DNA from: a virus
IMG/VR virus record: IMGVR_UViG_3300021090_000032
Coordinates: 1-48,637 of that record
Strand: one strand, 5' to 3'
Length of the DNA: 48,637 nt
Shown: positions 2,004 to 45,511 of the stretch, in pieces
How the letters are laid out: each line of letters begins with the position of its first letter
Numbering within the stretch: position 1 is the stretch's first letter
Position numbers and translations under genes: made by a program
The notes under the pieces: model-generated
Databases searched by the model: none
What the model was told of the DNA's origin: nothing
Seen by the model: the letters and a program-made list of their open reading frames with translations, nothing else

Positions 2004-2014
2004 AACTTGGAGGT

Positions 2015-2213
2015 TTGAAGGTCTTATGGATTCTATCACTCCCGCGCTAGTCCCGACGGTGAAGCTGCCGGAACACAGGGAGCAGGTTGTCATCTTGCAG
2101 ACGGGTGCGGAAGCACAGTCGTCAAGTCTGCTGCAGGCACGACGCCACCCTTTCCGAAATATCGGGAAGTGAGCTGACAGATTGTATGGTGATAGAATCC
2201 ATTGGACCTTCAA
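2015..2213 (+). ncRNA. Putative structured RNA closed by a 23-bp imperfect stem
   Basis: Bases 2015-2023 pair with 2205-2213 and 2026-2039 pair with 2189-2202 (9 + 14 bp, only two mismatched positions between). Inside are three local hairpins: 2105-2116 (GTGC/GCAC with a GGAA tetraloop of GNRA type), a 5-bp stem with a 3-nt loop near 2125-2137, and 2150-2169 (8 bp including one G-T, loop AATA). The right arm touches the AAGGAG ribosome site (2212-2217) of the next gene, so folding could limit its translation. Alternatives are an independent small RNA or the ends of a lost insertion. It matches no RNA family I recognise. Confidence 0.5.
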
Positions 2214-45029: not shown

Positions 45030-45049
45030 GTAAACCCGTGCCGACATCT

Positions 45050-45325
45050 GGGTATATATATATACCCCCCCTAGCCCGCGCGCTATCTAGCCGGGCGTTC
45101 GGGCCGGCGGTTATCAAATGTCTACCAGCCTCGACCTCTTCTCTTTCTCCAGACATCCCACTTTCTCTTTCTACCCTTCCTTTTATATATATATTTTAGT
45201 ATATAGATATAGATAGAGGAGAGGAGAGGAGGAGAGGGAGGCGAGGACGTCGGGGAGGGCAGGCCGTCCCCAGCTACCTCGCCCCGGGGAGCCCGAGCCG
45301 GGGGGAGGGGTATATATATATATAC
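45050..45325 (+). other. TA-tract and purine-rich island, replication-origin candidate
   Basis: Three alternating TA tracts: a perfect 18-bp palindrome GGG-(TA)6-CCC at 45050-45067, a TA-rich stretch at 45181-45210, and GGGG-(TA)7-CC at 45307-45325. Between them runs a GA-only purine tract (about 45214-45245) and GC-rich sequence. Easily melted TA blocks framed by GC and next to palindrome copy 7 resemble an origin or a DNA-bending control site. No coding sequence is convincing between 44942 and 45606. Confidence 0.4.
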
Positions 45326-45511
45326 CGTTGTCTATCCTAAAACCGGCAGCTAAGTAACTGACCCGGGGATACTTACAAGAATTGGGCGAGGGGTGCGCAC
45401 TTTATGTGATCCTTTTCTCTTTAAGCTCTTATAGAGAATTAGTATTTACAGACTATACCATCCCCCCAGACGATTTATTTCCAAATCCTCTAATCTTTTT
45501 TCAATCGTGGG

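Follow-up and report, generated by a model that had tools for sequence, protein, structure and literature searches.

In a virus genome, a segment of approximately 200 bp bounded by inverted repeats of 25 bp separates an operator-like palindrome from the ribosome site that serves a small gene (gene 2224). The best explanation, at somewhat below an even chance, is a lineage-specific insertion. It builds on the significance of the repeat and on the corresponding junction of the sole relative that has the gene, where the repeat is missing. Compared with a conserved new RNA, a recent hairpin-forming insertion, or otherwise an unrecognised small gene, is more probable. The window, i.e., the whole stretch of 48,637 nucleotides that was analysed, is a 48.6-kb virus record (IMGVR_UViG_3300021090_000032) with helicase, exonuclease, DNA polymerase, primase, terminase, and tail genes.

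The inverted repeat and its surroundings

The features of the region are as follows (positions in the window).

1986-2000, no strand: palindrome GTTCATAGTCTGAAC, operator-like, with 8 further sites of this kind in the window
2004-2211, no strand: segment of approximately 208 nt, present in the window and absent from the relative L084 between the palindrome with AGG and AAGGAG
2009-2013, + strand: GGAGG, which may serve the 48-aa ORF as ribosome site (12-nt spacing)
2015-2039, + strand: left arm of the inverted repeat, TTGAAGGTCTTATGGATTCTATCAC
2026-2172, + strand: 48-aa ORF, candidate gene, beginning inside the left arm and in frame with gene 2224
2040-2188, no strand: 149-nt interior, 58% G+C against 48% in the window, folding at chance level
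2189-2213, + strand: right arm of the inverted repeat, GTGATAGAATCCATTGGACCTTCAA
2212-2217, + strand: AAGGAG, ribosome site of gene 2224, its first two A's inside the right arm
2224-2493, + strand: downstream gene 2224, beginning with GTG, codon usage coding-like, 51% identical to its homologue in L084

The inverted repeat is real and far from chance. The original prediction, made from the letters only, had described arms of 9 + 14 bp around two mismatched positions. These arms were recovered at exactly the same coordinates, with 23 of 25 positions matching. They are separated by 149 nt and close a segment of 199 nt in total. The two differences adjoin each other near the arm middle, and one of them becomes a G-U pair in RNA, so that a single U-U mismatch is left. 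Inverted repeats were scored by +1 for a match and -2 for a mismatch, with arms within 500 nt. The arm pair scored 19, and a score of at least 16 was reached in none of 60 length-matched first-order Markov genomes. Elsewhere in the window, the sole other pair at this level was a TA-rich repeat at 45053-45322. This second inverted repeat (GGGGTATATATATATA, 45043-45332) has arms approximately 230 nt apart and is placed in a gene-poor stretch. The interval 45151-45350 showed the lowest composition-corrected folding energy among all 200-nt windows scanned.

The neighbours of the segment were as predicted, i.e., a first palindrome copy was located beside it at 1986-2000, and the right arm abuts the next ribosome site, overlapping AAGGAG by two bases. 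The GTG start of gene 2224 sits six bases past AAGGAG. Its product of 89 aa matched no family above the cut-off. Two candidate homologues, in L091 (glutaminyl-tRNA synthetase-like) and in L089 (a helicase stretch), were rejected as partial or chance matches. The C-terminal half of the product resembles the SNF2-like helicase stretch (L089 3636-5597) with 44% identity over 43 aa (E 6e-6), which may be chance or may mark a helicase-derived fragment.

Nine palindromes close to CCTGTTCAGANTCTGAACAGG were found in the window, i.e., at 1986, 10204, 16562, 23535, 30522, 38013, 43617, 45012, and 46162, where about 0.05 occurrences of GTTCAN5TGAAC are expected. They sit inside and between genes and were found in all related phages examined. 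They look like dispersed, stoperator-like repressor sites.

A separate, non-coding block lies just upstream of the segment, at 1684-1972. This block and L069 2966-3222 of the relative G005 are both placed directly downstream of the same gene of 217-219 aa. They share 143 identical of 254 aligned bases and no coding frame. Two hairpins in the block each carry one pair-keeping change on both sides. The first is CAGAGC/GCTCTG in the window and CTGAGC/GCTCAG in G005, and the second is CCTCAG-AACTACG-CTGAGG and CCCCGG-AACTACG-CTGGGG, respectively, with the AACTACG loop identical. As a whole, the block has an ordinary folding energy, and it had no Rfam match. By the comparison of these two sequences only, a conserved phage RNA is more plausible here than in the 199-nt segment. 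Inside the block, at 1840-1863, a ribosome-site-like stretch is followed by ATG GAT TAG. Its equivalent in G005 (L069 3080-3110) has ATG GAT AGG ACA ATG ACC TGA after a ribosome-site-like stretch, and the two would be a possible minigene.

Relatives, copies, and folding

A handful of related records was gathered by terminase and helicase searches. Among those fetched, a homologue of gene 2224 was found only in L084. The junction there reads CTGAACAGG directly followed by AAGGAG, 6 nt, and GTG, whereas in the window CTGAACAGG is followed by 208 nt and then by AAGGAG, 6 nt, and GTG. L084 thus retains the operator-like palindrome, the AAGGAG ribosome site, and the GTG start without the segment between them; this is an empty-site comparison with one distant relative and carries no polarity. 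In L084, the 136 codons ahead of the GTG form an open frame, and its palindrome may therefore be part of a fused gene. Because of this open frame, and because the single relative stands at 51% identity, loss of the segment in L084 is possible. G005, the closest relative by helicase, has neither the segment nor gene 2224. The original prediction had named relatives that lack the repeat and keep the gene order as the finding that speaks against a conserved RNA. In L084, the repeat is gone and the local order is kept, as far as one low-identity comparison can tell.

No comparable inverted repeat was found in this region among the fetched relatives, and L084 was also checked for arm-like sequence. 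An arm-like 14-mer in L084 at 2373 (13/14) was rejected since no second arm pairs with it and such a match is expected by chance. No second copy of the segment was found in the window or the fetched relatives, and searches of viral contigs, genomes, phages, and plasmids gave no homologue of the repeat. The exact 23-nt arm pattern was absent from viral contigs, and the exact inner-arm pair from genome contigs; both were exact patterns, which diverged copies would escape. The blastn search of the segment against phages and plasmids gave sub-significant matches only. The best of them, on a Sinorhizobium americanum plasmid (E 0.05), was rejected because it lies antisense within a large gene.

The full segment folds far better than shuffled sequences, with z = -6.4 on the + strand and about -5.9 on the - strand. 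The interior folded alone was no better than shuffles (z -1.2 and -0.9). All folding signal sits in the closing stem. As this signal is nearly equal on both strands, folding does not single out the + strand as RNA. The arms alone carry it, as is expected of terminal repeats around an arbitrary sequence. Three smaller hairpins, one with a GNRA-type tetraloop, had been proposed inside the arms. The GTGC-GGAA-GCAC sequence is present at 2105-2116, but the three hairpins are not supported because the interior folds at chance and the GGAA hairpin is absent from the minimum-energy structure of the + strand.

In the thermodynamic model, the pair probabilities of the stem were 0.7 to 1.0, the U-U mismatch excepted. 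With the stem formed, the core GGAG of gene 2224 had predicted unpaired probabilities of 0.47, 0.95, 0.96, and 0.90. When the left arm was held open, GGAG was predicted to become less accessible. By this prediction, the stem would not simply mask the ribosome site, and RNase III processing or a neutral loop-out would be left.

As an insertion, the segment would have arrived as a unit, either as a mobile element of MITE-like architecture or as an inverted duplication. It would be transcribed in the leader of gene 2224 and fold into the 25-bp stem, which should be a good RNase III substrate. The stem would loop the segment out with GGAG mostly accessible, so an effect on mRNA processing or stability would be expected more than hiding of the ribosome site. 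The G+C content of the interior, above that of the window, is in favor of an insertion. No transposase was found in the window genes scanned. No target duplication is flush with the arm ends; GGAG stands at 2009-2012 and at 2214-2217, and these flanks fit only if the left end is moved two bases outwards, while both could simply be ribosome sites.

Alternative explanations

The stretch had been called gene-free in the original prediction, which is doubtful given the in-frame 48-aa ORF with GGAGG 12 nt upstream. It is considered unlikely that this ORF is a small phage gene, translated from GGAGG and coupled to gene 2224, with the repeat secondary and overlapping its start and 3' flank. The 48 open codons, the ribosome-site-like GGAGG, and the frame shared with gene 2224, from which the ORF is separated by one TGA and 17 codons, agree with such a gene. 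The G+C content by codon position (0.66/0.45/0.66) is phage-gene-like as well. However, the codon usage is intermediate between random ORFs and genes. The codon score of 0.03 per codon was equalled by 23% of all ORFs of 35-70 aa, and only 7% of gene chunks scored so low. The 12-nt spacing is long, no homologue was found by tblastn in phages or plasmids, and the arms would be left unexplained.

The segment had also been taken for an undescribed structured RNA of the phage or a translational switch. It is likewise unlikely that gene 2224 is controlled by the stem and inner hairpins or that a small RNA is released from them. The very stable potential leader stem does adjoin the ribosome site, so a translational effect is possible; the stem is predicted not to hide the core GGAG. 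There is a precedent in an abundant noncoding RNA between inverted repeats of a phage satellite (PMC7567579). Nevertheless, the chance-level interior, the lack of homologues, and L084, which retains gene and palindrome without the repeat, leave the structured RNA unsupported. The Rfam search gave no gathering match, and relaxed thresholds gave only chance-level matches elsewhere in the stretch. Complementarity of the segment to the gene leaders of this phage was no higher than to random stretches. A tRNA or tmRNA was rejected, and so was a retron noncoding RNA, as no reverse transcriptase was among the scanned genes and the downstream gene is a short one of no recognised family. Still less probable is a new leader RNA unlike the described families, in which the 25-bp stem would excise or gate the 149-nt segment and couple the 48-aa ORF to gene 2224, possibly in an invertible manner.

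Rather improbable, too, is that the segment has no function at all, i.e., that it is an inert inverted duplication left by a template switch during replication, or a sequencing or assembly chimera. Its single copy, conserved nowhere, would suit this origin, but arms that differ at two positions and lie 149 nt apart seem unlike typical amplification chimeras. An invertible DNA switch of the kind located upstream of cwpV in Clostridioides difficile, which a site-specific recombinase would flip, is highly improbable. The anatomy and position resemble cwpV (PMC2784873), and either orientation would have an ATG at 2026 and identical codons 1 to 5. However, the window genes scanned yielded no recombinase, although a host enzyme might take this role, and a record in the inverted orientation was not found. 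The two arm differences lie together near the arm middle, and the interior is G+C-rich with a promoter match no better than elsewhere.

A lineage-specific insertion is kept as the preferred explanation. As a mobile inverted-repeat element, the segment would exemplify how a MITE-like insertion can reshape a leader within a phage genome; as an RNA device, it would represent a new regulator of phages.

Comparison with known systems

Phage mRNAs contain RNase III processing stems, e.g., in the early genes of T7. The segment shares with them a long, near-perfect stem between phage genes, but its predicted stem closes an interior of 149 nt.

In PLE satellites, an inter-inverted-repeat (IIR) transcript is found in each PLE, and complementarity to leaders was seen (PMC7567579). 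The segment is similarly phage-associated and placed between inverted repeats. Unlike the IIR transcript, it has no above-random leader complementarity, is not conserved, and is known from its sequence alone.

The cwpV switch of C. difficile has imperfect 21-bp repeats separated by 195 bp (PMC2784873). Both systems have imperfect repeats about 150-200 bp apart and upstream of a gene. The right repeat of cwpV lies 57 bp upstream of the start, whereas here it is at the ribosome site, and the segment comes with neither a recombinase nor any sign of inversion.

Prokaryotic MITEs, e.g., QMITE2 and Correia elements, are also similar in dimensions. QMITE2 of Coxiella burnetii is approximately 190 bp long with terminal inverted repeats (TIRs) of 23-29 bp and a core of 113-145 bp (PMC10969869), compared with about 200 bp, 25-bp terminal repeats, and a 149-bp core here. 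A strong fold if transcribed and an intergenic position are shared as well, and for a MITE, cleavage of transcripts by RNase III at the TIRs was reported (PMC10969869). In contrast to MITEs, the segment is single-copy, no target duplication was identified, and neither a related transposon nor a transposase was found. It has one mark of a MITE, i.e., terminal inverted repeats with a total length below approximately 500 bp (23/25 matching in 25-bp arms, 199 bp). Further copies or a parent transposon, which would be another mark, were not found in the window or the fetched relatives, nor by exact arm patterns in the contigs, and the segment is therefore not filed as a MITE. It belongs to the inverted-repeat-bounded leader segments in general and is, at present, a lineage-specific hairpin whose function, if any, is putative.
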